Part shown: positions 7,145-31,656 of the stretch, piece by piece | Numbering within the stretch: the first letter of the stretch is position 1 | Layout: every line of letters starts with the position of its first letter | Assembly: GCF_003991905.1 (NCBI RefSeq) | Contig: NZ_RSCL01000029.1 | Span: 89,223-122,874, forward strand | Reading direction: 5' to 3' | DNA from: Dulcicalothrix desertica PCC 7102 | GTDB lineage: Bacteria > Cyanobacteriota > Cyanobacteriia > Cyanobacteriales > Nostocaceae | Length of the DNA: 33,652 nucleotides | Notes under the pieces: generated by a model | Database searches by the model: none | What the model was told of the DNA's origin: nothing | What the model saw: the letters and a program-made list of their open reading frames with translations, nothing else | Made by a program: the position numbers and the translations under genes

Positions 7145-7315
7145 ATATTTGTGAGTCGAGCGAGCCGAGGGATTGATATAGTACATTATATTGCTACTAG
7201 ATGCAACGACATCTCTGTATTCGTGTATGTAAGAACATAAGTGTTGCAATTTGCATACCCCCCCAAATCACCAGAAGTAATATAATTGACCAGAAAATCT
7301 AAATGCCTGACTTTT
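7145..7315. promoter_or_regulatory. Divergent promoter region between TPR-CHAT and metacaspase
   Basis: This 171-bp gap must hold both promoters. It contains a gcatacccccc motif at 7253-7263, which recurs (inverted) at 26866-26876 and, with one change, at 26981-26990 upstream of the sigma-like operon. An AT-rich stretch (gtaatataattga) lies just before the caspase gene. No Shine-Dalgarno is clear for either start. The exact promoters cannot be assigned by eye. Confidence 0.4.
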
Positions 7316-9553
7316 ATGAAACGCCGCCATTTTCTCCAATTCGCTAGTTCGACCCTGGCAACACTGGGTTTAAGCCAGTTGGATATTATGCAACAGGGGG
7401 ATAAGTATACTCAAGCTTTAGCACAAAATAGAGGGCGTAGATTCGCCCTACTAATTGGTATTAATGCATACACTAACGGGATAAACCCCCTTAATGGCTG
7501 CGTTAATGATGTGTTGTTACAAAAACACTTATTAATACATCGCTTTGGTTTTAATCCCAAGGATATTAAAATTCTTACCGATGAACAAGCTACCCGTCAA
7601 AATATCCTCACTACCTTTGAAGGACATCTTATCAACCAAGCAAAACCTGGTGATACGGTGGTGTTTCACTTCTCTGGACATGGTTCGCAGGTTGTCGATC
7701 CAGATAAAGATAGTCCTGATGGTCTTAATAGCACCCTTGTTCCAATTGATTCTGGGTACAATGCCTCCGGTGGGGTGGTGCAAGACATTATGGGACATAC
7801 GCTGTTTTTACTCATGTATGCGCTGAAAACCGATAATGTTACTGTTGTACTTGATAGTTGCCATTCTGGAGGAGCAAAACGGGGAAATTTTATGATTCGT
7901 TCTCGCGATGGTGGTAATAAATTTCAAGCCCTTCCTCAAGAGTTTGTCTATCAAAAACAGTGGTTAAAACGCTTAAATTTATCGCCTCAAGAATTTATTA
8001 AATTACGGCGCCAAGGTATCGCTAAAGGTGTTGTCATCGCCTCTGCAAAACGTGACCAATATGCAGCCGATGCACCTTTTTCTGATTTCCATGCAGGGGC
8101 ATTTACCTATTTATTTACTCAATATCTCTGGCAACAGACTGCTAATCAACCAGTGACAAAAAGATTGGCTGATGTTAATCGCAGTACACGAATTCTATCA
8201 CGCAATAGTGGTATTTTCCAAGAACCTGAGTTGGAAATTAATAAAAAAAATTCCAATTCATCGATTTATTTTACTCCTTTTAAAACATCCTATGCCGAAG
8301 CAGTAGTTACACAAGTAGCAGGCGATAAAGTCGAAGTATGGTTGGGTGGAATCGATATACGAACTATTGAAGCTTTTAATAAAGATTCTGCTTTTACCGT
8401 TATTGATGCCAATGGTAAAGAAATAGGACTGGTAAAACTAGAATCACGTCAGGGATTGATGGGAAAAGGTAAATTTTTGAGTGCAGCAAGGGGAAATTAT
8501 AGGCTCCAACCAGGGACACTTTTACAGGAAAGAATTCGTGGTATTCCTGTAAATTTAACCTTGAAGATAGGTTTGGATGATGGCTTTGATAGTAATGGGA
8601 ATAACCAAGCTCAACAAGCTTTAAAACAAGTTTCTCGTATTACACCCTTACCCTTAAGACAGCAAGAAATTCATTATATCTTTGGTCGCATGACTGAATT
8701 GCGATATAAACAATTACAAAAATTTAAGGTGGTAAATCTACCTGCTGTCGGCAGTTTAGGTTTATTCTTACCCTCATTAGATCGCATCGTTCCCAATTCC
8801 TTCGGCGCCGCTAAAGAATCTATACCAGCAGCGGTACAACGTTTACAGCCTAATTTTAAATCACTCTTAGCAGCGCGAGTTGTCAAGCAAATGGTTGGCA
8901 ATAACAATACATCACAACTTAAAGTAAAAGCCTCTTTAAATCTTGCTGATAATAAAAAAGTTATTGTTGAAACCCTTCCCACCCGTGGCATTCTTAAACA
9001 AACTGATGGAAGTATAAACCCTAAAAAAGCAGTAAATATTAGAGATGGAGAAGTTCCTAAATTACTCGTTGGTACACAAATTACCTTTGAAGTAGAAAAT
9101 CACGAATCTGTTCCTATTTATGTTTCTATTTTAGTAATTGGTTCTGCTGGTGACATGGCAATAATATTTCCCAATGACTGGTCTGCTTCTGACGACGCAG
9201 CATTATTAATTGCTAAAGATAAGCGATTAGTCCCTGGAATTGATGATGGTTTTAAACTAACTGTAGTAAAACCATTTGGAATTACTGAGGCATTAATTAT
9301 CGCTAGCGTATCTCCATTAAGAAATTCACTCAAAGTACTCAAAGAAATTGCTAGCAACAAAGCGAAAGACCGTGGACCCCTTACGACCAGCAATGATGAG
9401 TTTTTAACTTTAACTGATAAATTACTAGAAGATTTCGATAACGGTTATCGGGGTGGAATTAATGTTGAAGAAGTTCAATTAACAACGGGTATACGTGGTG
9501 CTGATACAAAAAAAATTGCAGCGATGACGATAGCTTTTGAAGTTGTTAGTTAA
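7316..9553 (+). CDS. Metacaspase (peptidase C14) with DUF4384-like C-terminal domain, Tat-type signal
   Basis: The start is placed at ATG 7316 rather than the upstream TTG 7286, because it begins directly with a twin-arginine signal, MKRRHFLQFASS, followed by a hydrophobic stretch. The product is 745 residues. The p20-like caspase domain runs from about residue 40 to 320: RRFALLIGINAYT is the first strand, His122 lies in HFSGHGSQ (codon 7679-7681) and Cys182 in LDSCHSGG (codon 7859-7861), so the dyad is intact. Residues about 585-690 (VPKLLVGTQITFEVENHE, AIIFPNDW) resemble DUF4384, often fused to caspases in cyanobacteria. Family members usually cleave after Arg/Lys. The predicted site of action is the periplasm or membrane. 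It is divergent to the TPR-CHAT gene. Confidence 0.93.
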   Translation: MKRRHFLQFASSTLATLGLSQLDIMQQGDKYTQALAQNRGRRFALLIGINAYTNGINPLNGCVNDVLLQKHLLIHRFGFNPKDIKILTDEQATRQNILTTFEGHLINQAKPGDTVVFHFSGHGSQVVDPDKDSPDGLNSTLVPIDSGYNASGGVVQDIMGHTLFLLMYALKTDNVTVVLDSCHSGGAKRGNFMIRSRDGGNKFQALPQEFVYQKQWLKRLNLSPQEFIKLRRQGIAKGVVIASAKRDQYAADAPFSDFHAGAFTYLFTQYLWQQTANQPVTKRLADVNRSTRILSRNSGIFQEPELEINKKNSNSSIYFTPFKTSYAEAVVTQVAGDKVEVWLGGIDIRTIEAFNKDSAFTVIDANGKEIGLVKLESRQGLMGKGKFLSAARGNYRLQPGTLLQERIRGIPVNLTLKIGLDDGFDSNGNNQAQQALKQVSRITPLPLRQQEIHYIFGRMTELRYKQLQKFKVVNLPAVGSLGLFLPSLDRIVPNSFGAAKESIPAAVQRLQPNFKSLLAARVVKQMVGNNNTSQLKVKASLNLADNKKVIVETLPTRGILKQTDGSINPKKAVNIRDGEVPKLLVGTQITFEVENHESVPIYVSILVIGSAGDMAIIFPNDWSASDDAALLIAKDKRLVPGIDDGFKLTVVKPFGITEALIIASVSPLRNSLKVLKEIASNKAKDRGPLTTSNDEFLTLTDKLLEDFDNGYRGGINVEEVQLTTGIRGADTKKIAAMTIAFEVVS

Positions 9554-9685: not shown

Positions 9686-10282
9686 ATGTCGCATTACGAA
9701 ATTAATAACGGAAAACTCTTAACGCCATTCCAGCGTAAATTACTAGAAAAAAGCTTGCAAGATAATTTAACAGAATCATACCATCAGCGTATTCAAATTA
9801 TGTTGCTGGCAGATGAGGGTAAAACTCAAGCAGAAATTTGTCGTACTTTGGGGTGTTGTGCGGCGACGGTGCGGCATTGGACGCATATCGCCCGTACAGG
9901 AATGGCGCACCAATGGCAGGATTGCCCAATTGGGCGCCGTAAGAGCGTTAATGACCAGCATTTAGAACGTTTAAAGGAGCTGGTTAGCAATAGTCCTCGC
10001 GATTATGGTTATTCTTTTCGTCAGTGGACAGGAACTTGGTTAAGTAGGCATTTGGCAAAGGAATTTGGAATTAATGTGACACCCCAGCATATAAACCGAC
10101 TGCTGAAACAAATGGGGTTATCTACACGTCCAAAACCCAACTGTGTCAAAGAAACCATTAATCAACAAATCAATAGTTCGCAAATTTCGATTTCTGACCT
10201 CAAATCGACTGCTTTAAACAGTAGTTTTGAAATTTTACCGATTAAATTCGCTCCATTCGTAACGGATTCCTCAAATTCATGA
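9686..10282 (+). CDS. Helix-turn-helix protein, transposase-type DNA-binding domains only
   Basis: 198 residues. Residues about 47-68 (TQAEICRTLGCCAATVRHW) form a helix-turn-helix, and about 95-149 (SRHLAKEFGINVTPQHI, LLKQMGLSTRP) a winged HTH like those at the N-terminus of IS630-type transposases. No DDE catalytic domain follows; the last ~45 residues are low-similarity and Ser/Asn-rich. The stop TGA overlaps the transporter ATG (ATGA, 10279-10282), so the two are translationally coupled. This fixed position suggests a domesticated DNA-binding protein serving the export operon, perhaps as its regulator, rather than an active transposase. Function is inferred; the fold assignment is firmer. 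Confidence 0.75.
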   Translation: MSHYEINNGKLLTPFQRKLLEKSLQDNLTESYHQRIQIMLLADEGKTQAEICRTLGCCAATVRHWTHIARTGMAHQWQDCPIGRRKSVNDQHLERLKELVSNSPRDYGYSFRQWTGTWLSRHLAKEFGINVTPQHINRLLKQMGLSTRPKPNCVKETINQQINSSQISISDLKSTALNSSFEILPIKFAPFVTDSSNS

Positions 10283-12999
10283 CACAAAATCTCTCTGAGC
10301 AATTATCTTTAGAACGGCTCAATAATACTTTAGGATATTCTCTTTCAGAACAGCAATGGAAAAGCTGTTTACAGCAAGCTAAGTTTTTAACTCCGAAAGT
10401 TGGTAAGTTTTGGGAAGGAAGCGAAGTTAAACCAGGTGTTTACATTGTAATTACTGGCAAGGTGCGATTGCTTGATGATATAGGTGAGTTAATCGCAACT
10501 TTGGAAGCAGGCGATTCCTTTGGAGAATTTACTTTGTTTCCGGAAGCTGGGTTTATGCCCTATAGTGCCAGAGCAAGTGTTAATTTACAGCTTTGTTTTC
10601 TTTCGGGTGAGGTATTATCGCCATTAATAGCTAAATATCCGCAAATTCGAGAATATTTGGGCGATAAGGCAAAGAAATTTGGAAACCCCACCCCCAGTTC
10701 GCACACGGGGAGAGGTGCTGAAGGCGGGGTAGGGTCATCTAATGCTTACGCTGAAGAAATATATCCAGAAGCAAAGCGTCAGAAAAAAATTAGCAAAGCC
10801 TACTTTCCTAACCCTAGCGTAAAAGTTGGGCATTTATGGCAAAGCTTTGTCCATCGCTATCCGTTTTTTGCTCAACAAAGTTCCTCTGACTGTGGGGCTG
10901 CTTGTTTGGTAATGGTATCGCGTTATTGGGGGAAAAGTTTTAGTGTCAATCGCCTGCGGGATATTGCCAACGTTGACCGAGATGGTGCATCATTACGTGG
11001 GTTAACAGCTGCGGCAGAAAGTATTGGTTTTAGTACGCGACCTGTGAAAGCAAGTCTTGACCAGTTGGCAAAACAGAAATTACCTGCAATTGTTCACTGG
11101 GAAGGCAAACATTACATTGTTCTTTATGAAGTGACGCGGAAATACGTAATTGTTGCCGACCCTGCGATTGGTCAACGCACCCTTAGCTACGATGAATTTA
11201 AGCAAGGTTGGACTGGTTATACCTTATTATTGCAACCTACGGTTTTGTTTAAAAATACCAAGGAAGCAACTACCCCTTTTTGGCAATTTTTTGAATTGAT
11301 AAAGCCTCACTCTTTGGTCATGTTTGAGGTGTTTATTGCTTCTGTGTTTATCCAAATATTTGGACTTATCACTCCTTTATTTACCCAGTTGATTCTAGAT
11401 AGAGTAGTAGTGCAACGTTCTGAACTAACTTTAAATGCTGTTGGGTTAGGATTACTAATTTTTAGTATATTCCGTGTAGTGATGACTGGGTTACGACAAT
11501 ACCTTCTCGACCATACAGCAAATAAAATAGATTTAGCATTAGTTGTTGGGTTTATTCGCCATACTTTCCGATTACCCTTAAACTTTTTTGAAACTCGTTA
11601 TGTTGGCGATATAGTATCCCGCTTACAGGAAAACCGAAAAATTCAACGTTTTCTTTCAGGGGAAGCATTATCTATATTACTAGATTTACTAACTGTTTTT
11701 ATCTACGTCGGATTAATGTTTTGGTATAGTTGGAAAATGGCTTTACTGGCATTAGTGATTATACCACCATTTGCGATTTTGGCTTTGATTGCCACACCTT
11801 TTTTACAAAAAATTTCACGAGAAATATTTAGCGCTGTTTCCCATGAAAGTAGTTACTTAATTGAAGCTTTAACCGGAGTAAGAACAGTAAAGGCAACAGC
11901 AGTAGAACAAACAGTGCGATGGCATTGGGAAGAATTATTAGATAAAGAAGTAAAAGCTAACTTTTCCGGGCAAGTTATTGGTAATAGGCTACAAATATTT
12001 AGCAACACCATTCAAGCATTGGTAACTACTGGCTTACTATGGTTTGGTGCATATCAGGTTATCCATAACCAATTAACTATTGGTCAATTGGTGGCATTTA
12101 ATATGCTATTGGGAAATATCATTACACCATTTCAACGCTTAACTGTATTGTGGAATGAGCTACAGGAAGTAATAATCGCCGTCGAACGAATTAATGATGT
12201 ATTAGATACCGAACCGGAGGAGGATTTACAATATCAAGCAAGACAAAGTTTACCGCCTATTCAAGGGCATATTCGCTTTGATAATGTGACATTTCGCTAT
12301 CATCCAGAAAGCGATACTAATGTTTTAGAAAACCTCAGTTTTGAAGTCAAAGCAGGACAAATGGTAGCACTGGTAGGACGCAGTGGTTCTGGAAAAACTA
12401 CCATTTCTAAGTTAGTTTTAGGTTTGTATCCAGCCAGCGATGGTAAGATTTTGGTGGATGAACATGATATTACTAGTATTTCCTTACGTTCATTACGTTC
12501 TTGTGTAGGGGTAGTTGACCAAGATACCTTTTTATTCGGTTCAACAATTCGAGAAAATATTACTTTAGGGCATCCAGGGGCAAGTTTGGCAGAAGTTATC
12601 GAAGCTGCAACATTAGCAGGCGCCGATGAGTTTATTAAGAAGCTACCAATGGGGTATGAAACCAAAATAGGTGAAGGTGGTGGGTTGCTATCTGGTGGGC
12701 AAAGACAACGTATTGCTATCGCTAGAGCGTTGTTGGGCAATCCTAAGTTATTAATTATGGATGAGGCTACTTCTCATTTAGATACCGAGTCAGAAAGAAT
12801 TATTCAGCGTAATTTAAGCACTATTCTTAAGGATAGAACTACTTTGATAATCGCGCATCGTTTATCTACTGTACGAAATGCTGATTTGATTTTAGTGCTT
12901 GATAAGGGTGTGTTGATTGAAAGTGGGAATCATGAAGATTTGATGGCGAAACGTGGACATTATTTTTATCTTAATCAGCAGCAGGACTTAACCCTCTAA
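10279..12999 (+). CDS. CNBD - C39 peptidase - ABC transporter (HetC-like, double-glycine leader exporter)
   Basis: 906 residues. A cyclic-nucleotide-binding-like domain comes first (about 30-130; GVYIVITGKVRLL, GDSFGEFTLF). A low-complexity linker (about 136-155) is encoded by an inserted repeat. The C39 peptidase domain (about 193-320) has Cys205 in SSSDCGAACL, His278 in GKHYIVLYE and Asp294 in VADPAIG, the expected triad. The six-helix membrane domain covers about 335-620. The ATPase has Walker A GRSGSGKTT (about 700), signature LSGGQRQRIAIARA (about 804), Walker B LLIMDEATS and H-loop IIAHRLS. Transporters of this type cut leader peptides after GG and export the core. The six GG-leader peptides 2.5-5 kb downstream are the obvious substrates. 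It is translationally coupled to the upstream HTH gene and followed by its HlyD partner. Confidence 0.95.
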   Translation: MTQNLSEQLSLERLNNTLGYSLSEQQWKSCLQQAKFLTPKVGKFWEGSEVKPGVYIVITGKVRLLDDIGELIATLEAGDSFGEFTLFPEAGFMPYSARASVNLQLCFLSGEVLSPLIAKYPQIREYLGDKAKKFGNPTPSSHTGRGAEGGVGSSNAYAEEIYPEAKRQKKISKAYFPNPSVKVGHLWQSFVHRYPFFAQQSSSDCGAACLVMVSRYWGKSFSVNRLRDIANVDRDGASLRGLTAAAESIGFSTRPVKASLDQLAKQKLPAIVHWEGKHYIVLYEVTRKYVIVADPAIGQRTLSYDEFKQGWTGYTLLLQPTVLFKNTKEATTPFWQFFELIKPHSLVMFEVFIASVFIQIFGLITPLFTQLILDRVVVQRSELTLNAVGLGLLIFSIFRVVMTGLRQYLLDHTANKIDLALVVGFIRHTFRLPLNFFETRYVGDIVSRLQENRKIQRFLSGEALSILLDLLTVFIYVGLMFWYSWKMALLALVIIPPFAILALIATPFLQKISREIFSAVSHESSYLIEALTGVRTVKATAVEQTVRWHWEELLDKEVKANFSGQVIGNRLQIFSNTIQALVTTGLLWFGAYQVIHNQLTIGQLVAFNMLLGNIITPFQRLTVLWNELQEVIIAVERINDVLDTEPEEDLQYQARQSLPPIQGHIRFDNVTFRYHPESDTNVLENLSFEVKAGQMVALVGRSGSGKTTISKLVLGLYPASDGKILVDEHDITSISLRSLRSCVGVVDQDTFLFGSTIRENITLGHPGASLAEVIEAATLAGADEFIKKLPMGYETKIGEGGGLLSGGQRQRIAIARALLGNPKLLIMDEATSHLDTESERIIQRNLSTILKDRTTLIIAHRLSTVRNADLILVLDKGVLIESGNHEDLMAKRGHYFYLNQQQDLTL
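10683..10736. repeat. Interspersed repeat inserted in frame inside the transporter gene
   Basis: This C-run then G-run sequence (accccacccccag ... cggggagaggtgctg ... ggcggggtaggg) has near-inverted ends (accccacc/ggcggggt) and resembles intergenic repeats of this genome (9605-9645, 27136-27194). It encodes the odd GNPTPSSHTGRGAEGG linker between the CNBD and peptidase domains without breaking the frame. Confidence 0.6.
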
Positions 13000-13030
13000 G
13001 CAGTTAACTTAAATAATCGCAAATCCAACC

Positions 13031-13050
13031 AAAATCTAAAATCTAAAATC
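13031..13050 (+). repeat. Short tandem heptamer aaaatct
   Basis: Nearly three copies of aaaatct end 5 nt before the HlyD gene start. Short tandem heptamers of this kind are common in heterocystous cyanobacteria. Confidence 0.6.
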
Positions 13051-13055
13051 GCTAT

Positions 13056-14561
13056 ATGTCTAATTCATGGAATGAACGGGTAATGCAGGATTTATCGGAA
13101 GATGCTGCTGTTGAAGAATCATCAAAAGCTAATGATGATTGGTCTGATGTAACTAAAGATTTACTAAATAGTTTACCTCAAGTTTGGACGAGGGGAATAC
13201 TATATTTTTTATTCTTTTTTATTTCTATTGCTTTGCCTTGGGCGATGTTATTTCAAGTTGATGAGACTGGTGCAGCGAGGGGAAAACTTGAACCTAAAGG
13301 GAAAACAGTTAAACTTGATACTGCTGTTGCAGGAACTGTTGCAAATGTTTTGATTAAGGAAGGCGAAACTGTGAAAGCAGGAGAACCTGTATTAATTTTA
13401 GATTCAGAATTAGTACAATCGGAATTGCGTCAAGGCAAGGATAAATTAGAAGGACAGTTAAACAGACACTCTCAATTAAAGATTCTCAAAAACCAATTAA
13501 TTGTAGCACTATCAACTCAAGAACAACAAAGTCAAGCGCAAGAGTTAGAAAAACAGGCACAAATTGAACAAGCGCAACAGAATTTTATCGCTTTAAAAAA
13601 TTCTTACACAGTTCAGAATGAAGAAAAGTTAACACAAGTCAATCAGGCAAAACAAGCGATTGAAGAAACTCAAACAGCTAGCAAGTTAATGGAAAGTAGC
13701 TTAACTAGTGCCCAACGAGAAGTAGAACGCTATCGCCAGTTAAAGGAATTAGGAGCAGTACCGGAAATTAATGTTGTTGATAAGCAGGATATAGCCAAGG
13801 AAAGGCAAAGACTATATGAAAAAAGTCAGTCTGATATTAAACAAGCTGGCTTACGTTTAGCGGAACAACAAAGTAACTATGAACGAACTATTCGTCAAGC
13901 CAAGGCTGAAATTGAACAAGCATATTTACGCTTAAAGGAACAACAAAGAAGCCATAAAACCTTAATTCACTCTGGTAAGCTAGCTGTTCTCAAAAGTGAA
14001 GAACAAATAAAAAATCTAGATACAGAAATGATGGGATTAAATGCAGAAATCGCGCAAAGTAGAAACCAACTAAAAAGCCTACAATTACAATTACAGCAAA
14101 GGAAAATAACATCGCCCATAACAGGTAAAGTTTTCCAACTACCAATTCAACGTCCCGGTTCAGTAGTCCAACCTGGAACAATGGTAGCAGAAATCGCCCC
14201 CGAAGGTTCTCCATTAATTATTCGGGCAACAATGGCGACAACAGAAAGCGGTTCTTTAAAAAAAGGATTACCAGTCAAAGTAAAATTTGATGCCTATCCA
14301 TTTCAAGACTATGGCGTTATCGAAGGAGAATTACTAGATATTTCTCCTACTACTATAGATGTGGACACACCTAATGGAAAAATATCTGCATATAACTTAG
14401 AAATTATCCTGAAACAAGATTGTATGCCTAGCAATAATCAATGTATTCCTCTACGTCCCGGCGATACAGCAACGGCAGAAGTAATAGTTCGTCAAAGACG
14501 AATTATAGACTTCCTCCTCGACCCATTCAAACAATTAGATAAAGGAGGCTTCAAATTGTAA
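13056..14561 (+). CDS. HlyD-family membrane fusion protein
   Basis: 501 residues: cytoplasmic acidic N-terminus, one membrane helix at about 46-66 (ILYFLFFFISIALPWAML), then a lipoyl half-motif (AGTVANVLIKEGETVKAGEP, about 92-111), a long Gln/Glu/Lys-rich coiled coil (about 125-345), the second lipoyl half (ITSPITGKVFQLP...GSVVQPGTMVAEI) and a beta-barrel domain. This is the periplasmic adaptor that links an inner-membrane ABC exporter to an outer-membrane channel. It lies 56 bp after the C39 transporter on the same strand, so the two should form one exporter. No TolC-type channel gene is in the window, so a general one is probably used. Confidence 0.93.
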   Translation: MSNSWNERVMQDLSEDAAVEESSKANDDWSDVTKDLLNSLPQVWTRGILYFLFFFISIALPWAMLFQVDETGAARGKLEPKGKTVKLDTAVAGTVANVLIKEGETVKAGEPVLILDSELVQSELRQGKDKLEGQLNRHSQLKILKNQLIVALSTQEQQSQAQELEKQAQIEQAQQNFIALKNSYTVQNEEKLTQVNQAKQAIEETQTASKLMESSLTSAQREVERYRQLKELGAVPEINVVDKQDIAKERQRLYEKSQSDIKQAGLRLAEQQSNYERTIRQAKAEIEQAYLRLKEQQRSHKTLIHSGKLAVLKSEEQIKNLDTEMMGLNAEIAQSRNQLKSLQLQLQQRKITSPITGKVFQLPIQRPGSVVQPGTMVAEIAPEGSPLIIRATMATTESGSLKKGLPVKVKFDAYPFQDYGVIEGELLDISPTTIDVDTPNGKISAYNLEIILKQDCMPSNNQCIPLRPGDTATAEVIVRQRRIIDFLLDPFKQLDKGGFKL

Positions 14562-14637
14562 ACCCTCTTTCCGCGTACTCCTTTGTCTGTGCGGTCAATC
14601 AATCAATCAAAATATTTGAAGCATTTGGAGCAACATA

Positions 14638-15381
14638 ATGACACAAACAATCACCATCACCCACGAAGAAATCATCCACGAAATCAAACTATCCTGCAAA
14701 ATGCCTGAGATAATCGAGCAAATAATTACTCGTAAAGCGATTGCAAACGCTGCAAAAGAAGCAGGCATCGAAGTTACCAACGAAGCACTCCAACGAACAG
14801 CAGACGCTTTGCGATTAATAAGTAAACTCGAAACAGCTGAGGATACCTGGGCATGGTTAGAAAAATTTAGTCTGACTTTAGATGACTTTGAACAAATCGC
14901 TTACACAAACTTCATTTCTGCACAATTAGCCAATCATTTGTTTGCAGATAAAGTTGAACGTTGCTTCTTTGAAGATCAGCTAAATTATGCAGGCGCCGCT
15001 CTGTACGAAGTTGTATTAGATGATGAAGACCTCGCGATAGAGCTATTTTATGCGATAAAGGAAGATGAAATAAGCTTTCATGACGTTGCTCGCCAATACA
15101 TAGAAGATAAAGAACTACGTCGTAAAGGGGGGTATAAAGGAATAGTACACCGCAAAGATTTAAAGCCAGAAATTTCTGCTGCTGTTTTTGCAGCTAAACC
15201 ACCACAACTTCTCAAACCCATAGTCACCTCCAAGGGAGTTCATCTCATTTTCGTTGAGGAGTTAATTCAACCTAACTTAGATGACAAATTACGCGCTACA
15301 ATTTTGTCTGATATGTTCTCAGAATGGCTAAAACAACAAATAGAGCAATTTGCAGTATTGGAGCAATTTGAAGTTATTTAA
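14638..15381 (+). CDS. Cytoplasmic parvulin-type (PpiC/SurA-like) peptidyl-prolyl isomerase
   Basis: 247 residues without a signal peptide. The N-terminal ~110 residues form a helical SurA-N-like region (IIEQIITRKAIANAAKEAGI). The parvulin core (about 118-208) has the order ALYEVVLDDEDLA, FHDVARQY, LRRKGGYKGIVHRKDL, ISAAVFAAKPPQLLKPIV and KGVHLIFVEE. The start is supported by ttggagcaacata before the ATG. The gene is 76 bp downstream of HlyD and closes the operon at a strong terminator. Cytoplasmic parvulins next to C39/HlyD exporters occur in other cyanobacterial peptide-export loci. Here it could act on the precursors, two of which have Thr-Pro-rich cores; that link is inference. Confidence 0.85.
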   Translation: MTQTITITHEEIIHEIKLSCKMPEIIEQIITRKAIANAAKEAGIEVTNEALQRTADALRLISKLETAEDTWAWLEKFSLTLDDFEQIAYTNFISAQLANHLFADKVERCFFEDQLNYAGAALYEVVLDDEDLAIELFYAIKEDEISFHDVARQYIEDKELRRKGGYKGIVHRKDLKPEISAAVFAAKPPQLLKPIVTSKGVHLIFVEELIQPNLDDKLRATILSDMFSEWLKQQIEQFAVLEQFEVI

Positions 15382-15394
15382 TAGTATTAGCCAG

Positions 15395-15424
15395 AAAACC
15401 TACCATTAAAAGGTAGGTTTTTTG
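15395..15424 (+). terminator. Rho-independent terminator of the export operon
   Basis: A 10-bp perfect stem (aaaacctacc/ggtaggtttt) with a 7-nt loop runs into a T-tract, starting 14 nt after the isomerase stop. The A-run on the left arm could let it work on the other strand too. Confidence 0.9.
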
Positions 15425-15444
15425 TTTCCAAAATAATCTCAAAT

Positions 15445-15481
15445 AAAAAATGCCTGTATCTTAATATAATAAAGATACAGG
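15445..15481 (-). terminator. Rho-independent terminator of precursor peptide 1
   Basis: A 10-bp perfect stem (cctgtatctt/aagatacagg, 15453-15481) is followed on the minus strand by CATTTTTT. It lies 57 nt past the stop of the last precursor gene, back to back with the export-operon terminator. The same stem family recurs at 17163-17189 and 17601-17626. Confidence 0.85.
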
Positions 15482-15537
15482 ATATATAGTGTTTTACTTG
15501 ATTAAAACTAAAATCTAGAGCAATTTAGACACTAATC

Positions 15538-15735
15538 TTACTGCACTTTAGTTAACCTTGGAGTCAGGTCTGGAGTCATGGGAGTAATAGTAATGGGTGT
15601 AATAGTAATGCTATTACCAGTTCCACCTTTAGTTATATTTAGCTCTGTCTCTGTAAGTTCATTAAGATAGCTTTCTGAATCCATCAATAATTCGGCACCA
15701 GAGTTACGTAGATTGGAGATAGAAATTGTAGCCAT
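15538..15735 (-). CDS. Double-glycine leader precursor peptide 1 (Thr/Pro-rich core)
   Basis: 65 residues. The 38-residue leader begins MATISISNL, contains ESYLNELTE and ends TKGG, the C39 cleavage site. The 27-residue core has eight Thr, one Ser, four Pro and no Cys, with iterated ITPITITPMTP. A good Shine-Dalgarno (aaggag, 10 nt before ATG) supports the start. The leader is shared by five neighbouring genes while the cores differ, as expected of a RiPP or bacteriocin precursor family. The Thr-rich core would suit a Ser/Thr dehydratase such as the nearby kinase/HopA1 pair, but without Cys it cannot make lanthionine. The mature structure is unknown. Confidence 0.88.
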   Translation of the reverse strand: MATISISNLRNSGAELLMDSESYLNELTETELNITKGGTGNSITITPITITPMTPDLTPRLTKVQ

Positions 15736-15925
15736 TAAACTTGTACTCCTTATTCAAAATTGTTTGACCTTGCTTAAAATATTGAATTGCTTATCTCATT
15801 TCCATCATTTAAATAGGATGGGGCTTGAGTAAGCGCAAATACGCAGAATTATCAGAGATTATTACTAAGACTTTTGCTGTTGAGACTAAATCTTGGTTCG
15901 TTTTTCAACAGCTACAAGTTATAAT

Positions 15926-16117
15926 CTACAGCAGTTTCTTTAACTGTTTAATAAGCTCTGGACTTGCCAGTATAATTGGAATTGTAATAGGGCTAGGAGA
16001 AAATCCACCTTTTGTACTACTCAGTTCAGCTTCTGTAAGTTCATTAAGATAACTTTCTGAATCAGCAAATAAGTCAGCACCAGTGGCATGTAGGTTAGAA
16101 ATCGAAATATTAGCCAT
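15926..16117 (-). CDS. Double-glycine leader precursor peptide 2
   Basis: 63 residues. The leader begins MANISISNLH, includes ATGADLFADSESYLNELTEA and ends STKGG at residue 38. The 25-residue core starts FSPSPITIPIILASP and ends in a basic amphipathic LIKQLKKLL; it has three Ser, one Thr, three Pro and no Cys. The leader is closest to peptides 3 and 4. The start has a modest Shine-Dalgarno-like tggaa. The predicted partner is the C39 transporter at 10279-12999. Confidence 0.87.
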   Translation of the reverse strand: MANISISNLHATGADLFADSESYLNELTEAELSSTKGGFSPSPITIPIILASPELIKQLKKLL

Positions 16118-16164
16118 TAAAGTCGTATTCCATATTCAAAATGTTTTAGTTCAGATTAATTCAT

Positions 16165-16233
16165 TACAGTTCTTCTATAGGGTAGGCGTTCACGAAATAT
16201 ATCCTCATGAACGCTCTTTTTGAAAGAACTGTA
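16165..16233 (-). repeat. Nested inverted repeat after precursor 3
   Basis: Outer arms tacagttctt/aagaactgta (10 bp) enclose inner arms gcgttca/tgaacgc (7 bp). It begins 2 nt past the stop of precursor 3 on the minus strand and could end or stabilise its transcript. No T-tract follows directly. Confidence 0.55.
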
Positions 16234-16235
16234 GA

Positions 16236-16424
16236 TTATCTCGACAGTCTTTCGGCAATTGCAGTCGTGATAACAACAGCTGCGTAAACAGCAGCAGCAG
16301 CAATAATACTTCCACCTTTAGTTTCATTCAACTCAGCATCTGTAAGTTCACTCAGATAGCTTTCTGAATCAGCAAATAAGTCAGCACCAGTTGCACGTAG
16401 ATTAGAAATCGAAATAGTAGCCAT
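16236..16424 (-). CDS. Double-glycine leader precursor peptide 3 (Ala-rich core)
   Basis: 62 residues. The leader (MATISISNLR...ESYLSELTDAELNETKGG, 38 residues) is almost identical to peptides 2 and 4. The 24-residue core, SIIAAAAVYAAVVITTAIAE then RLSR, is strongly hydrophobic and Ala-rich with two Ser and two Thr and no Cys, suggesting a membrane-active helix. The upstream gggact may serve as ribosome binding site. It is the same peptide family with a clearly different product type from peptides 1 and 5. Confidence 0.87.
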   Translation of the reverse strand: MATISISNLRATGADLFADSESYLSELTDAELNETKGGSIIAAAAVYAAVVITTAIAERLSR

Positions 16425-16464
16425 TATAATTTTAGTCCCAATTTAAGTTTGAGTTAGTTTTTAT

Positions 16465-16506
16465 AGGATAGGTTTGATGAATTTTTTTATTACCAAACCC
16501 TATCCT
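16465..16506 (-). repeat. Hairpin between precursors 4 and 3
   Basis: aggatagg-ttt and aaa-c-cctatcct pair over about 11 bp with one bulge, enclosing an A/T-rich loop. It lies after the precursor 4 stop and 41 nt before the precursor 3 ATG (transcription direction), so it may process or attenuate a joint transcript. No T-tract. Confidence 0.45.
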
Positions 16507-16544
16507 AAAAGAAGTGTTAGCTATAGCAGCGTAATTTCTTCTTG

Positions 16545-16751
16545 TTATACTAATTTTTTAGCAACCGCAGTAACTGCCTTGGTTGCTTGGTATCCTATTG
16601 CAACACCTATCACAAAAACAGCCGTAGCAAAAAGACTTCCGCCCTTAGTTTCATTCAATTCAGAATCTGTAAGTTCATTAAGGTAGCTTTCAGAATCAGC
16701 AAATAAGTCAGCACCAGTTGCAGATAAGTTAGAAATAGAAATAGTAGCCAT
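16545..16751 (-). CDS. Double-glycine leader precursor peptide 4 (amphipathic core)
   Basis: 68 residues with the family leader (MATISISNLS, ATGADLFADSESYL, ELNETKGG). The 30-residue core (SLFATAVFVIGVAIG... AVTAVAKKLV) is hydrophobic with Gly spacing and a basic end, has one Ser and three Thr and no Cys, and resembles unmodified two-peptide bacteriocins in character. A ggag box lies 9 nt before the ATG. A 29-bp block about 54 nt upstream of the ATG is identical to the block before precursor 6, so this gene probably heads its own transcript, 4-3-2-1. Confidence 0.88.
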   Translation of the reverse strand: MATISISNLSATGADLFADSESYLNELTDSELNETKGGSLFATAVFVIGVAIGYQATKAVTAVAKKLV

Positions 16752-16804
16752 TGACGTTATGCTCCGTATTTAAAGTATTTGAGTTTGGAATCAGCTTTTA
16801 ATCT

Positions 16805-16833
16805 CCTCTTCCTATTACTATAATCTGTTATTT
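16805..16833 (-). promoter_or_regulatory. Conserved promoter/5'-UTR block upstream of precursor 4
   Basis: A 29-bp sequence identical to 17892-17920, each 52-54 nt upstream of a precursor ATG. Read on the minus strand it contains gattatagtaat, a plausible extended -10, followed by a purine-rich aggaagagg. Its conservation against diverged flanks argues for a functional promoter or regulator site. Confidence 0.65.
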
Positions 16834-17019
16834 AATAGATAGTTGCAAGGGTTAAATCAATAACTAAATAACAAAAATGTTATAGTTATATTTCTGGCTT
16901 AATCTTTTCTTCAAATTAATCGATTTTACATCCTCTTATTTGTGGTTTTTGTCAAGATTTATATAAAGGATATAAAATCTAATTAAATCATTATGTTCAA
17001 TTAGCTTAGAAAACATAAC

Positions 17020-17119
17020 AGGACTTATGCAAAAATCCTAGAAACCTGGTTTCTTTGTCGATGACTTGTAATAAAAACGACGATTTGGCGTAGAAACCAG
17101 GTTTCTTTACGTAAGTCCT
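17020..17119. mobile_element. MITE-like palindromic element, 100 bp
   Basis: Ends aggacttatgc (left) and acgtaagtcct (right, inverse complement aggacttacgt) form imperfect terminal inverted repeats. Inside lie two gaaaccNggtttc palindromes (17041-17055 and 17093-17107). No coding capacity. No convincing target duplication was seen. Confidence 0.6.
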
Positions 17120-17153
17120 GCATAAATTGAAAAGGTAGCAAGAAGTATTTTAA

Positions 17154-17189
17154 ATTAAAAACCCGTATCTTAATACATTAAGATACAGG
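17154..17189 (-). terminator. Rho-independent terminator of precursor 5
   Basis: gtatcttaa/ttaagatac forms a 9-bp stem (17165-17186) with flanking C-G pairs and, on the minus strand, a following TTTTT. It is the same stem family as the precursor 1 terminator. It is 147 nt from the stop, apparently because the element at 17231-17333 sits between. Confidence 0.75.
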
Positions 17190-17230
17190 TATATAAGATT
17201 AATATTTAATTTCTAAACAATTACGACTTA

Positions 17231-17333
17231 TATAGCAGTTCTAAATCATTTGTAAAATCCAAACGGTGTAGAGACGCGTTCACGGAGTGTACCGCAGGTA
17301 AATTTCGCGTCTCTACATTTAGGATTGCTATAG
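17231..17333. mobile_element. MITE-like palindromic element, about 103 bp
   Basis: Inner arms gtagagacgcg (17268-17278) and cgcgtctctac (17306-17316) are perfect 11-bp inverted copies. Outer ends tatagcagttctaaa and (inverse complement) tatagcaatcctaaa match at 13 of 15. It is a type of small repeat common in heterocystous cyanobacteria. Its end lies 2 nt from the precursor 5 stop codon. Confidence 0.65.
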
Positions 17334-17335
17334 TA

Positions 17336-17545
17336 TTAGAGTTGAAACTGTTGGAATAGAGTCGTAGGATATTTAGGTATTGGAGTCATTATATCTGTCG
17401 GGCCTACTGTAGGTGCAGTAATATAAAAATATCCACCTTTAGTCATATCCATTTCGGTTTCTGTCAATTCATAAAGATAGGTTTCTGTATCTGCAAATAA
17501 TTCAGCACCAGAGATACTTAGATTTGAAATATAAATTTTAGCCAT
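17336..17545 (-). CDS. Double-glycine leader precursor peptide 5 (Thr/Pro/aromatic core)
   Basis: 69 residues. The leader is the most diverged copy (MAKIYISNLS, GAELFADTETYLYELTE, MDMTKGG) but keeps length 38 and the GG site. The 31-residue core begins YFYITAPTVGPTD, contains MTPIPKYPTT and ends LFQQFQL: six Thr, five Pro, three Tyr, no Cys, no Ser. The leader groups with peptides 1 and 6 (GAEL, DTETYL). Ribosome binding site is weak. A hairpin of the shared family lies upstream between it and precursor 6. Confidence 0.86.
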   Translation of the reverse strand: MAKIYISNLSISGAELFADTETYLYELTETEMDMTKGGYFYITAPTVGPTDIMTPIPKYPTTLFQQFQL

Positions 17546-17600
17546 TGAAGTTTTACTGCTAATGAAAGTTGTGTGTTTATTTATGATTGCAAATGAGTGC

Positions 17601-17626
17601 CTGCATCTTAATAAAATAAGATACAG
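17601..17626 (-). repeat. Stem-loop between precursors 6 and 5
   Basis: ctgcatctta/taagatacag forms a 10-position stem with one mismatch, 25 nt past the precursor 6 stop. It is a third copy of the stem found after precursors 1 and 5 but lacks a T-tract, so it may only slow or protect the transcript, letting precursor 5 be co-transcribed. Confidence 0.55.
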
Positions 17627-17651
17627 AACATCTAGTTACTAAAGCTAAGTA

Positions 17652-17840
17652 CTATCGCAATACAGATACTATTGAAGTAGTTTTAAGTATTGTTGTTGGT
17701 TTAAAAATAGGTGAAATACAAATACATCCACCCTTCGTCATATCGAGTTCACTATCTGTCAGTTCATGAAGATAGGTTTCTGTATCCAAAAATAATTCGG
17801 CGCCAGAGGTATTTAGATTAGAAATAGAAATTGTAGCCAT
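17652..17840 (-). CDS. Double-glycine leader precursor peptide 6 (only Cys-containing core)
   Basis: 62 residues from the ATG at 17840, chosen because aaggaaactata precedes it and it gives the family start MATISISNL; an in-frame ATG 18 nt upstream is less likely. The leader ends DMTKGG at residue 38. The 24-residue core starts CICISPIFKPTT and ends SIVSVLR: two Cys at core positions 1 and 3, four Thr, three Ser. It is the one member that could in principle form lanthionine or disulfide bonds. A conserved promoter block lies 52 nt upstream. Confidence 0.87.
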   Translation of the reverse strand: MATISISNLNTSGAELFLDTETYLHELTDSELDMTKGGCICISPIFKPTTILKTTSIVSVLR

Positions 17841-17891
17841 TATAGTTTCCTTATTCATTAAAGTTGTGTAATAGGAATAGGCATTAAATCG

Positions 17892-17920
17892 CCTCTTCCT
17901 ATTACTATAATCTGTTATTT
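17892..17920 (-). promoter_or_regulatory. Conserved promoter/5'-UTR block upstream of precursor 6
   Basis: Identical over 29 bp to 16805-16833 and at the same distance from its ATG (52 versus 54 nt). It contains gattatagtaat on the minus strand as a candidate -10. Flanks differ, so this is not just a recent duplication of the whole gene region. Confidence 0.65.
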
Positions 17921-18132
17921 CATTACTAATTTCAAGGTTTTATCCAATAAATAATGAACAAAATAATTATACTTTTATGCGTGATATAGTGTTTTTATTC
18001 CCGTCACATATTGTATTTAAGCTAATTTGTTATCTGGGTGATTGATTATGTGATAACAATCAGAATATAATTGAAACACTCTACTTATGCTATTTATAGA
18101 AAAATCTATTTCAATTATTATTTGCTTATCAT

Positions 18133-18169
18133 AAAAAACCCTGTACTTTAAAGTAAGAAACAGGGTTTT
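18133..18169 (-). terminator. Rho-independent terminator of kinase/HopA1 genes
   Basis: aaaaccctgt and acagggtttt form a 10-bp stem with an inner actt/aagt pairing; TTTTTT follows on the minus strand. It begins 46 nt after the HopA1-like stop. Confidence 0.85.
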
Positions 18170-18214
18170 GTTGATAGTTGGGCTTGATGCCCCTTAAATC
18201 ATCTAATAAGAGGT

Positions 18215-19318
18215 CTAAAGTCTAACTACGAACTCATAAATATCCTCAGAACCAGCATTCAAATAAGCCCGTTCCACATCAATACCCAATTGCGAGAACT
18301 CTTTAAGGATAGCCTTCATCTTCCCTGCTGCTGACTTATCGTTCTGATACCAACTTTCCAATAATCCATTCGCCACAATTTGACATCTATTCATGCCAAA
18401 ACTTTCTTGAGTACCAAATTTCTGGTCGGGTTCCTCTGCTAAACCTAGTCCCGGTGCGAGTTGTTTGGTAAATAAAGGTATTTCAGGTACAAAATGCGAT
18501 TGATTTTTCTGATAAACAAGCTCTAAAACTTCTCTAGCTGCTAGAAAATCTTTCTTATCAAAGTATAATACACCAGCATCATAACGTTTATAATCGCTTG
18601 GATTATAGAGAACTTTGAAAGTAAAGGGAAGAGCAATAGCATTTAACTGCTGGGTTAAGTCACGCATAACTTCCACAGCTCCAACCGATGTGAAATTAAA
18701 GTAGATACGTGTTAATTGCTCTTCTGAGTCTTGGTGACTGTGTATTCCTGCATTAGCTACCGCCATGTAAAAGCCATTTTGCACTACATTTTTTGGTAAA
18801 CGAATTGCGACTATTTCACCAACTGTTGCAGATTGCTCATGAGGTTGCAGGTGCTTATCTCTATGTATATGTAGTCTTAAAGCTCCCTTTTTTACTGCTA
18901 AAGTGCCATCCTCTTCTTCCTTGATAACAGACCAACCGGGGTCAAAGTAACCATCGCCGGAATTACTTTCATGCAATTGCTGGTAAAATTCTAAATTTAC
19001 TCCTAAAAATGTATTATTCTCCATATCTAGGAGCAAACTATTTTCATCTGCATTTGGCGCCAGTATATTTTGCAAATACCCATTGTAATAAATGCCATAA
19101 AGAAAACTACGCAATTGCAAGCTCATATATTTCTGCTGCATTTGCTCAGGTAGTTTCTGAAAACGCTCAACAACCTCAACTGGTAGTTCTAAGGCTTTAT
19201 AATCTGGATGGCGAATCGAGAAATCTGAATGAATTTCTACTTTGTTAACGATATCTTCTAAAACGTCTAACAATCGCCCAGTTAATTGATTTGATGGAAT
19301 ATTCAGTAATTGTGCCAT
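18215..19318 (-). CDS. T3SS effector HopA1-family protein (predicted phospho-Ser/Thr lyase)
   Basis: 367 residues. The C-terminal two thirds carry the family pattern: RLHIHRDKH (148-156), RIYFNFTS (204-211), YNPSDYKRYDAGVLYF (238-253), PLFTKQLAPGLGLAEEP (281-297), GTQESFGMNRC (302-312). HopA1-family proteins in class V lanthipeptide (lexapeptide LxmY) and thioviridamide (TvaD) pathways act with an APH-type kinase to eliminate phosphate from phospho-Ser/Thr, leaving Dha/Dhb. The kinase partner lies directly upstream, 15 nt away. The His/Lys/Arg-rich 148-156 segment may hold acid/base residues, an inference from OspF/SpvC lyases. No signal peptide, so cytoplasmic. The nearest likely substrates are the six precursor peptides downstream on the same strand. 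Confidence 0.85.
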   Translation of the reverse strand: MAQLLNIPSNQLTGRLLDVLEDIVNKVEIHSDFSIRHPDYKALELPVEVVERFQKLPEQMQQKYMSLQLRSFLYGIYYNGYLQNILAPNADENSLLLDMENNTFLGVNLEFYQQLHESNSGDGYFDPGWSVIKEEEDGTLAVKKGALRLHIHRDKHLQPHEQSATVGEIVAIRLPKNVVQNGFYMAVANAGIHSHQDSEEQLTRIYFNFTSVGAVEVMRDLTQQLNAIALPFTFKVLYNPSDYKRYDAGVLYFDKKDFLAAREVLELVYQKNQSHFVPEIPLFTKQLAPGLGLAEEPDQKFGTQESFGMNRCQIVANGLLESWYQNDKSAAGKMKAILKEFSQLGIDVERAYLNAGSEDIYEFVVRL

Positions 19319-19333
19319 TTGTCAATTGTGGAT

Positions 19334-20470
19334 TTATAGAGTGTTTAAAGTATTGGCGCCAAAAATAGTAGGCATTGATTCGTAAGGACGACACAACAAG
19401 CTTTTCGCCACCTGAAGCATGACAATACCGGTATTACCAAAGGATTTTTGGTATTGAATCATAGCTTGAATTTGTTGAACTAAGGCAAACCCTGCAAATT
19501 GAATTGTTCGCTTTAAGAAATCTGGTCGGTGTTCTATAATTTCTGGGAATTTTTTTAGATAGGATTGGATTAATATCAAAATTGAAGGTTGAATTTTGTC
19601 TAAGGGGGTTATCGCTAAACCTAGAGATTCATCAATGCTCAAAGATTTGCTAATAACTAAGCTACCTAACCAAATTTGTATATAGCTAGCGATGATAGTA
19701 CCTAAATCAAAAGCTGGATCTCCCCAAGCTGAACGCTCCCAATCTATTAATCGCACACTAGAGTCTGTAGTTTCTTCCCAGTTATTATGCACCAGGATAT
19801 TATTGAGTTTTAAGTCATTGTGGACAAGACAAGAAGCAGTAAAGGAATTCGCGACCTCCGCTATTGCTTGCCCTAAACTGTCATATCTTTGATACAAAGC
19901 AAAAAATTTCAACCCATCACCTGGTACTATTCCAAAGATTTCTGGGCTAATTCTTTCCAAACTTTGTTGTAAATCTTTCACCATGTCAATTTTGAGATTA
20001 TCTGGCTTATCAGAGAAAAAATCTTGATATTCTTTGCAATTGAAAGTCTCACCATGAATAGATGCTAAAAGGGTACCAATCGTTGCTGCAATTTTACTAT
20101 GAAAAGTCTGCTCTTTTGTATAAAAGTCCATCAAATCTCGATATTGATCTAAATATTTAAAGACAAGAATTGAATTGGCTCTATCAAAATATAATATCTC
20201 TGGGAGAAATGGACAAAGATGATTGACTGAAGAAAAATTTAGTAAGAATTCTTGAATTTTCCACTCTCCTAAAAATTCTCCATGTGCTTTTCCTTCCTGG
20301 TTATGACGTTCCTGTTTAACAAGAAATTTTTCGTCATCTAAAAAAGTAACTAGTAAGTTAAAATTTTTAGCCGCTAGTGGTTTTACTTTACTTAGAGGGC
20401 GCTCTAGCTGATTGCAATGTTTGACTAAATAATCGCAAACATTCTGCTCGTTTATTAGAAATGTCATCAT
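19334..20470 (-). CDS. APH-fold kinase (predicted RiPP Ser/Thr kinase)
   Basis: 378 residues (two adjacent ATGs, 20470 or 20467, are both possible). It has the aminoglycoside-phosphotransferase fold: candidate ATP-binding Lys52 in FLVKQE, hinge region LVFKYLDQYRDL (about 102-113), catalytic loop LVHNDLKLNNIL with His217, Asp219 and Asn224, and metal-binding Asp243 in LIDWERSAWGDPAFDLG. The kinase looks active. In an antibiotic-producer context it could be a resistance gene, but the HopA1 partner 15 nt downstream matches the split kinase/lyase dehydratase of class V lanthipeptides (LxmK) and thioamitides (TvaC). It is probably co-transcribed with the lyase. The 135-nt gap before it may contain its promoter or link it to the upstream operon. 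Confidence 0.85.
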   Translation of the reverse strand: MMTFLINEQNVCDYLVKHCNQLERPLSKVKPLAAKNFNLLVTFLDDEKFLVKQERHNQEGKAHGEFLGEWKIQEFLLNFSSVNHLCPFLPEILYFDRANSILVFKYLDQYRDLMDFYTKEQTFHSKIAATIGTLLASIHGETFNCKEYQDFFSDKPDNLKIDMVKDLQQSLERISPEIFGIVPGDGLKFFALYQRYDSLGQAIAEVANSFTASCLVHNDLKLNNILVHNNWEETTDSSVRLIDWERSAWGDPAFDLGTIIASYIQIWLGSLVISKSLSIDESLGLAITPLDKIQPSILILIQSYLKKFPEIIEHRPDFLKRTIQFAGFALVQQIQAMIQYQKSFGNTGIVMLQVAKSLLCRPYESMPTIFGANTLNTL

Positions 20471-23910: not shown

Positions 23911-23923
23911 GATAATGACCCAC

Positions 23924-31526: not shown

Positions 31527-31656
31527 ACTCACCTCATTTCTGCTTGACGTATAAATTTTATTACTTACTTTTTGGCGCCGTAATGTTTGTAAGAAAACGT
31601 AAAAAACGATATTTGATTATATAGTCATTTTTATTGTATAGTAATGTATCTTTTTT

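Follow-up and report, generated by a model that had tools for sequence, protein, structure and literature searches.

A dehydratase split into a kinase and a HopA1-family lyase is known from two groups of peptides: the class V lanthipeptides (cacaoidin, lexapeptide, pristinin), which use a LanK/LanY pair, and the thioamitides (thioviridamide, thiostreptamide), which use a HopA1/phosphotransferase pair. According to a 2025 review, class V lanthipeptides had been found only in actinobacteria (PMC12328550). A survey of HopA1 proteins, which found a phosphotransferase with 96% of them, describes a precursor Family 1A that occurs in cyanobacteria only and comprises 570 peptides in 183 clusters encoded near HopA1 proteins; each cluster holds several precursors with a conserved double-glycine leader and variable cores without conserved Ser, Thr or Cys residues (PMC8153245). 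Cyanobacterial candidate precursors of a 'type-B' have been presented as well (PMC9486802), and between them three papers cover cyanobacterial clusters in which HopA1 and a kinase accompany double-glycine or type-B precursors (PMC8153245, PMC9486802, PMC7794033). In the openly licensed literature we found no characterised cyanobacterial product of a kinase/HopA1 pair, Family 1A included. The descriptions of the cyanobacterial bacteriocin groups I and II (PMC3140520, 2011) report a long-type transporter with nucleotide-binding, C39 and ABC domains together with HlyD and rotamase genes; group II has, on average, several precursors, M16 peptidases and HetP-like genes.

The window, a stretch of 33,652 nucleotides from the 11.4 Mb genome of Dulcicalothrix desertica PCC 7102, holds a locus that brings elements of these systems together (Table 1). 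The minus strand (15538-20470) encodes the kinase (20470-19334), HopA1 (19318-18215) and six precursors (within 17840-15538), and a plus-strand unit of HTH, C39-ABC, HlyD and parvulin genes (9686-15381) runs toward them. Domains and coordinates thus agree with the original prediction of one locus combining an APH-fold kinase, a HopA1 protein, six double-glycine-leader precursors, a C39-ABC/HlyD exporter and a parvulin. The nearest named relatives of the hopA1 gene are found in Calothrix sp. NIES-4101 and PCC 7103 (84% identical). A contig scan for relatives gave three Calothrix loci (L145, L146 and L147), all of which contain kinase, HopA1, parvulin, HlyD and C39-ABC genes (the C39 gene of L147 is broken by the contig end), while the HTH gene is present in two and the leaders number four, three and three per locus. 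The flanks of the window encode TPR-CHAT, caspase-domain and CHASE2/CHAT plus DUF1822 proteins and a subtilase (3488-7249 minus, 7286-9553 plus, 21430-25294 minus, 29502-31532 minus); the subtilase may in principle trim peptides.

Table 1 Features of the D. desertica PCC 7102 locus, with positions counted from the first letter of the window
Feature	Position	Strand	Evidence and remarks
HTH protein, putative export-unit regulator	9686..10282	+	Homeodomain-like; PF13565/PF13384; 4-base overlap with C39 gene
C39-ABC exporter, 906 aa	10279..12999	+	cNMP-binding PF00027, C39 PF03412, ABC membrane PF00664, ATPase PF00005
HlyD-type membrane fusion protein	13056..14561	+	PF13437 E 3.4e-19; TIGR01843 over cut-off
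Parvulin-type prolyl isomerase	14638..15381	+	PF00639 E 3.1e-10; export-unit member
Hairpin with T run 3' of parvulin gene, putative terminator	15392..15424	+	Inverted repeat I10; -17.6 kcal/mol, z -6.65
Hairpin 3' of precursor 1, putative terminator	15453..15481	-	Inverted repeat I16; z -4.59
Precursor 1	15538..15735	-	Thr/Pro-rich core TGNSITITPITITPMTPDLTPRLTKVQ
Precursor 2	15926..16117	-	Core FSPSPITIPIILASPELIKQLKKLL
Precursor 3	16236..16424	-	Hydrophobic core SIIAAAAVYAAVVITTAIAERLSR; related peptides in Calothrix loci L145, L146
Precursor 4	16545..16751	-	Hydrophobic core SLFATAVFVIGVAIGYQATKAVTAVAKKLV; related peptide in L145
Upstream element of precursor 4, putative promoter region	16787..16908	-	Direct repeat D2, 75%; like stretches in L145, L146
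Hairpin 3' of precursor 5, terminator-like	17161..17190	-	Terminator scan; z -5.26
Precursor 5	17336..17545	-	Core YFYITAPTVGPTDIMTPIPKYPTTLFQQFQL; relative in L146
Hairpin between precursors 6 and 5, possible attenuator/terminator	17600..17626	-	Repeat D4; z -3.69
Precursor 6	17652..17840	-	Core CICISPIFKPTTILKTTSIVSVLR; start set at internal ATG 17840
Upstream element of precursor 6, putative promoter region	17874..17995	-	Direct repeat D2; like stretches in L145, L146
Hairpin with T run 3' of HopA1, putative terminator dividing enzyme unit and precursors	18135..18169	-	-13.9 kcal/mol, z -3.72; absent from terminator-scan sites
HopA1-family phospho-Ser/Thr lyase (LanY-like, predicted)	18215..19318	-	PF17914 E 1.2e-60; LxmY chain 9dk1_B E 1.6e-8
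APH-fold kinase (LanK-like)	19334..20470	-	K52, D219, N224, D243 present

With the class V lanthipeptides the locus shares a predicted split dehydratase of the LanK/LanY type with corresponding active-site residues. It differs in that the window proteins scanned include no decarboxylase, methyltransferase or LanC domain (nor, by Pfam, a linked LanD decarboxylase or LanC-type cyclase) and in its combination of C39 export with a double-glycine leader. Likewise, the dehydration pair recalls the thioamitides, but neither a YcaO domain, the thioamitide thioamidation enzyme, nor a decarboxylase domain was detected among the window proteins scanned. The earlier statement that no LanC-like, YcaO or decarboxylase gene is visible therefore holds for the scanned proteins, and a LanC-domain match is absent from the entire contig. 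As in the bacteriocin groups I and II, the nucleotide-binding, C39 and ABC domains occur together with HlyD and rotamase proteins; unlike the descriptions of those groups, which name no kinase or HopA1 genes (PMC3140520), the window has both, and in contrast to group II its best HetP-like match (E 0.65) is not significant.

The closest likeness is to Family 1A, from whose description (PMC8153245) we found no difference: the window has HopA1 with a phosphotransferase, several non-identical double-glycine-leader peptides and variable cores. Since the match of the leaders is by description, we infer by analogy that the MATISISNL-type leader of the window is the Family 1A leader. The cluster is a new locus of an already described kind, probably of this family. 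The original prediction had called the known pathways mostly actinobacterial, which is correct for characterised products (PMC12328550); the implied novelty, and with it the suggestion of a possibly new product class, is not supported, as Family 1A had been described with the same anatomy (PMC8153245).

The active-site Arg/Lys/Arg/Tyr set of LanY-type HopA1 lyases is present in the window protein, in which R204, K235, R245 and Y252 match LxmY by alignment and the CaoY residues (PMC9486802) by spacing. The kinase reaches 78.8 bits with the LanK model NCBIfam NF038156, below the cut-off of 315, and this is still its top-scoring NCBIfam model; a structure model of moderate confidence had LxmK as best match, tied with 5-methylthioribose kinase. 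Judged from the sequence, the locus is likely to encode a RiPP pathway with a split dehydratase resembling that of class V; it is a real, conserved cyanobacterial cluster that probably makes and exports small dehydrated peptides. In such a pathway the kinase would phosphorylate Ser and Thr residues of the six precursors and the HopA1 lyase would eliminate the phosphate to yield dehydroalanine and dehydrobutyrine; the C39 domain would cleave after the Gly-Gly motif, the ABC/HlyD pair would export the peptides and the parvulin would help the export unit.

The association of leader and enzymes extends across the phylum. Among 386 cyanobacterial genomes (that of D. desertica counted), PF17914 was found in 56 and the leader profile in 46; both are present in 45 genomes, the leader only in one, HopA1 only in 11 and neither in 329 (Fisher p 4.6e-47, a value that is overstated because the genomes are related). 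The surroundings of 113 HopA1 matches were collected as 112 loci, of which 111 hold 112 HopA1 ORFs; L143, with no HopA1 ORF by phmmer, was left out of the locus counts. Of the 112 HopA1 ORFs, 111 have a kinase on their own strand no more than 1 kb away, in one case as a fusion; the exception is L083. After profile iteration, 181 leader ORFs were counted; they are spread over 60 of the 111 loci, at up to about 10 kb from HopA1, and 178 of them are on the HopA1 strand. The link between enzymes and precursors, formerly drawn from adjacency and strand in a single locus, is thereby borne out, and so is the co-occurrence of the pair with MATISISNL-type leaders in relatives. When the 112 HopA1 proteins are placed in a tree, 18 sequences form a window-type group (chosen by eye; support 0.70) with leaders in 16 loci, mostly downstream of HopA1, and a broader set has them mostly upstream of the kinase.

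Further genes were observed close to HopA1. An aldo/keto reductase gene lies 3' of HopA1 in six loci (a blastp group, one member of which was Pfam-tested) and may encode an enzyme that processes dehydrated residues further; in L055, L111, L120 and L106 a second parvulin gene follows it. HetP-family genes are located 3' of HopA1 or beside the HTH-C39 unit in L037, L040, L042, L045, L049, L050, L054, L060, L063, L079, L117 and L122, all outside the window-type group, and the three members tested were over the cut-off of NCBIfam NF037966. HopA1 is fused to a LanC-like domain in L137 (8323-10812), an arrangement already described (PMC8153245), and shares one ORF with a kinase-like region (APH slightly under the cut-off) in L139 (9703-12162).

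In the exporter, the C39 domain has the catalytic Cys of a DCG motif at the position of the HlyB Tyr in the alignment. The HTH protein is similar to IS630 transposases in their N-terminal part (NF033545, 74.4 bits, under the cut-off of 100). Blastp groups of the export-unit proteins are concentrated in loci with leaders as compared with leaderless loci, with counts of 43/60 versus 3/51 for the parvulin, 33 versus 2 for C39-ABC, 30 versus 2 for HlyD and 27/60 versus 2/51 for the HTH protein, all of them lower bounds, since the loci were limited to 10 kb and some stop at contig ends. The exporter has close relatives in 15 genomes; in the five that were traced, on the HlyD side only (L203-L207), the exporter always adjoins HlyD and parvulin genes, no kinase or HopA1 match was detected on that side and no HopA1 match of those genomes lies within 10 kb. 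The export unit with its parvulin is a general export module that is also found without HopA1. The parvulin, which the original prediction had counted as part of the pathway, is hence not a marker of it, and a function as tailoring enzyme was rejected because it accompanies the exporter at sites without HopA1. A role as Pin1-like reader of phospho-Thr-Pro is unlikely too, since by eye no basic loop of the Pin1 type is present.

The most serious alternative, though one we regard as rather unlikely, is that the precursors leave the cell essentially without modification, as bacteriocin-like double-glycine peptides, with the enzyme pair acting elsewhere or on one or two of the six. It gains from the exporter relatives far from any HopA1 match, four of the five traced (L204-L207) having other short ORFs with Gly-Gly nearby, in L205 along with a Nif11 peptide and a radical SAM protein, and from the weak likeness, under the cut-offs, of cores 3 and 4 to class II bacteriocins. 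Moreover, among the leader matches listed, 120 of 150 are within 10 kb of a HopA1 match and 30 are away from HopA1; in L194 and L202 the leader stands beside an export module with no HopA1 on the contig (L202 stops at the contig end). Leaders at such sites mean that the leader may mainly serve export. Unmodified export is, however, difficult to reconcile with the presence of HopA1 in 45 of the 46 leader genomes, the position of the enzyme genes near the precursors and on their strand, the catalytic Lys kept where leaders are present and the conservation of the Thr-rich cores 1 and 6 in relatives. A separate observation concerns members of the leader family away from HopA1 whose cores are rich in Gly, His and Ser and could bind metal (L187 9963-10229, L189 9935-10141, L192 9964-10158, L197 6864-7145 and L201 9787-10041).

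The six leaders have 21 of 37 residues invariant and a mean column identity of 82%, compared with 62% for the whole peptides. Leaders change mostly at synonymous sites and cores do not: 36 of 55 codon changes are synonymous in the leader and 16 of 74 after it (five comparisons, stop codons counted). The cores are of two kinds, Thr/Ile/Pro-rich (precursors 1, 2, 5 and 6) and hydrophobic, Ala/Val/Gly-rich (3 and 4). The core of precursor 1 recurs in identical form in two database homologues and with a single change in a third, in each case behind a different leader, and PIFKPTTILKTTSIV is common to precursor 6 and Calothrix NIES-4101 and kept in the L145 relative of precursor 6.

For the window-type group, 40 distinct complete cores were compared with pieces of equal length from neighbouring proteins. 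The set, from which duplicates had been removed, includes the six of the window and those of L145-L147. L124, broken by the contig end, and L054|12413-12607, in which no Gly-Gly was seen, were left out of the core statistics. A script took the end of the leader as the first Gly-Gly, Gly-Ala or Ala-Gly within a set range, so that some cores hold one surplus residue, and L145|12021-12263 was re-split by hand. Ser and Thr together account for 18.3% of residues versus 11.5% (sd 1.0), a share reached in none of 1000 draws, and no core lacks Ser and Thr (2.3 expected). Cys is likewise enriched, 4.0% versus 1.1%, and for this reason the Ser/Thr enrichment cannot be taken to show modification; it fits dehydration substrates, and other members of the group may perhaps have rings or disulphides, but it does not prove modification. 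The remaining leader-linked cores are longer (median 43 versus 27), and 105 of 148 have a Lys-Ser-Phe/Tyr-Ser motif, more Ser conservation than is given for Family 1A overall (PMC8153245).

The distribution of Cys bears on a further alternative, that the products are true lanthipeptides with rings formed spontaneously or by unlinked LanC-domain enzymes of the genome. Five LanC-domain proteins (open frames of 690-1158 aa) are encoded elsewhere in the genome, on contigs C2, C3, C7, C11 and C75 of G000 (L148-L152), precursor 6 has two Cys residues, and Cys is present in 18 of 41 distinct window-type cores (the set before two final corrections), with four to six in those of L147. In the window, however, five of the six cores lack the Cys that, together with Ser/Thr, the (Me)Lan or AviCys of class V products requires, Cys being restricted to precursor 6, and the contig is devoid of a LanC-domain match; we therefore judge this alternative improbable. 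As five of the six cores are without Cys and no cyclase gene is on the contig, mostly linear dehydrated peptides are the likeliest predicted products. The linaridins are a known class of linear, dehydrated peptides.

The HopA1 tree also contains a leader-free clade of 41 kinase/HopA1 pairs (support 1.0), with a leader in none of the 41 loci. The catalytic Lys is replaced in all 41 HopA1 proteins (Gln in 34, Glu in five, His in two), while the kinases retain K52, D219 and N224 in 41/41 and D243 in 38/41. Of the phylloquinone-type genes looked for in the fetched stretches (five families: 4HBT thioesterase, AMP-binding enzyme, isochorismate synthase, MenA and MenC), 29 of the 41 loci encode one or more families, 22 the complete set of five and 12 none; none was found in the fetched loci outside the clade. 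Examples are L034 (G000:C1:591042-611041, HopA1 9701-10801), L064, L087 and L088. A hidden precursor in this clade was rejected, the widest group of small ORFs found (ORFs starting with ATG, up to about 4.5 kb away) occurring in 7 of the 41 loci. Possibly the kinase of this clade works beside a lyase that is no longer active, in a process unrelated to RiPPs; in the openly licensed literature we found no report of a Lys-less HopA1 clade.

By contrast with this clade, the catalytic Lys is present in 58 of 61 leader-linked HopA1 proteins (exceptions L138, L142 and L052_15607). L052 has two HopA1 genes (15607-16674 and 18827-19939), one with the site intact and the other with K235, R204 and Y252 replaced. 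Ten leaderless copies fall outside the clade, among them L063 and L079, which carry diverged double-glycine peptides, and L039, which is near a contig end; because nine of the ten keep the Lys, its loss marks one clade and not every leaderless locus. The contrast was rejected as statistical proof, given that the Fisher p of 2.4e-18 counts kin sequences as independent and that the loss is essentially that of one clade. Since 41 of 112 HopA1 proteins belong to a leader-free clade that has lost the catalytic Lys, the presence of the pair alone was likewise rejected as a RiPP marker. Going by the residues conserved, the predicted lyase site is maintained where precursors occur, the window copy included, so that the window pair fits a RiPP pathway.

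By analogy with what is predicted for the Lys-less clade, the window kinase might only phosphorylate, next to an inactive HopA1 partner. The loss of the Lys throughout that clade beside well-kept kinases lends this idea its appeal; with all four active-site residues in the window copy and its placement outside the clade, we regard it as very improbable. A chance grouping of the six ORFs and their neighbours can be dismissed, as no point in its favour was found and it is refuted by the synteny in three Calothrix loci, besides the leader conserved with synonymous change and the phylum-wide co-occurrence of leader and HopA1.

Within the RiPP cluster as preferred here, the hairpins and the repeated upstream elements (Table 1) suggest that the putative kinase-hopA1 unit is transcribed separately from the precursors, with predicted starts before precursors 6 and 4. 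The stretches folded for z-scores were picked for their hairpins, and the site scan showed no excess over shuffled sequence (six terminator-like sites versus 7.1 expected, 45 promoter-like versus 39.2).

The exporter has the architecture of HetC, the N-terminal part of which bound ppGpp in vitro and the cargo of which is not known (PMC10986499). In a search for HetC, the C39-ABC homologues formed several groups per genome, and a connection between the HetC cargo and the window leader family is only a lead. It enters a more specific proposal, to which we give a small chance: that the products are ring-free peptides with Thr-derived dehydrobutyrines (e.g. a dehydrated TITITPITITP core), exported under nucleotide regulation by a HetC-type transporter as cell-cell signals of filamentous cyanobacteria and not as antibiotics. 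If this were true, the HetP-adjoining leader-linked relatives and the HetC cargo would be parts of one peptide system.

That leader-linked HopA1 proteins have the Lys and those of the leader-free clade lack it provides a simple filter for genome mining and a natural negative control for biochemistry. Family 1A, with its 183 clusters, ranks among the two largest peptide families associated with HopA1 (PMC8153245), and the D. desertica locus is a compact test case for it, with six cores of two kinds, one enzyme pair and Thr-rich cores kept among relatives.
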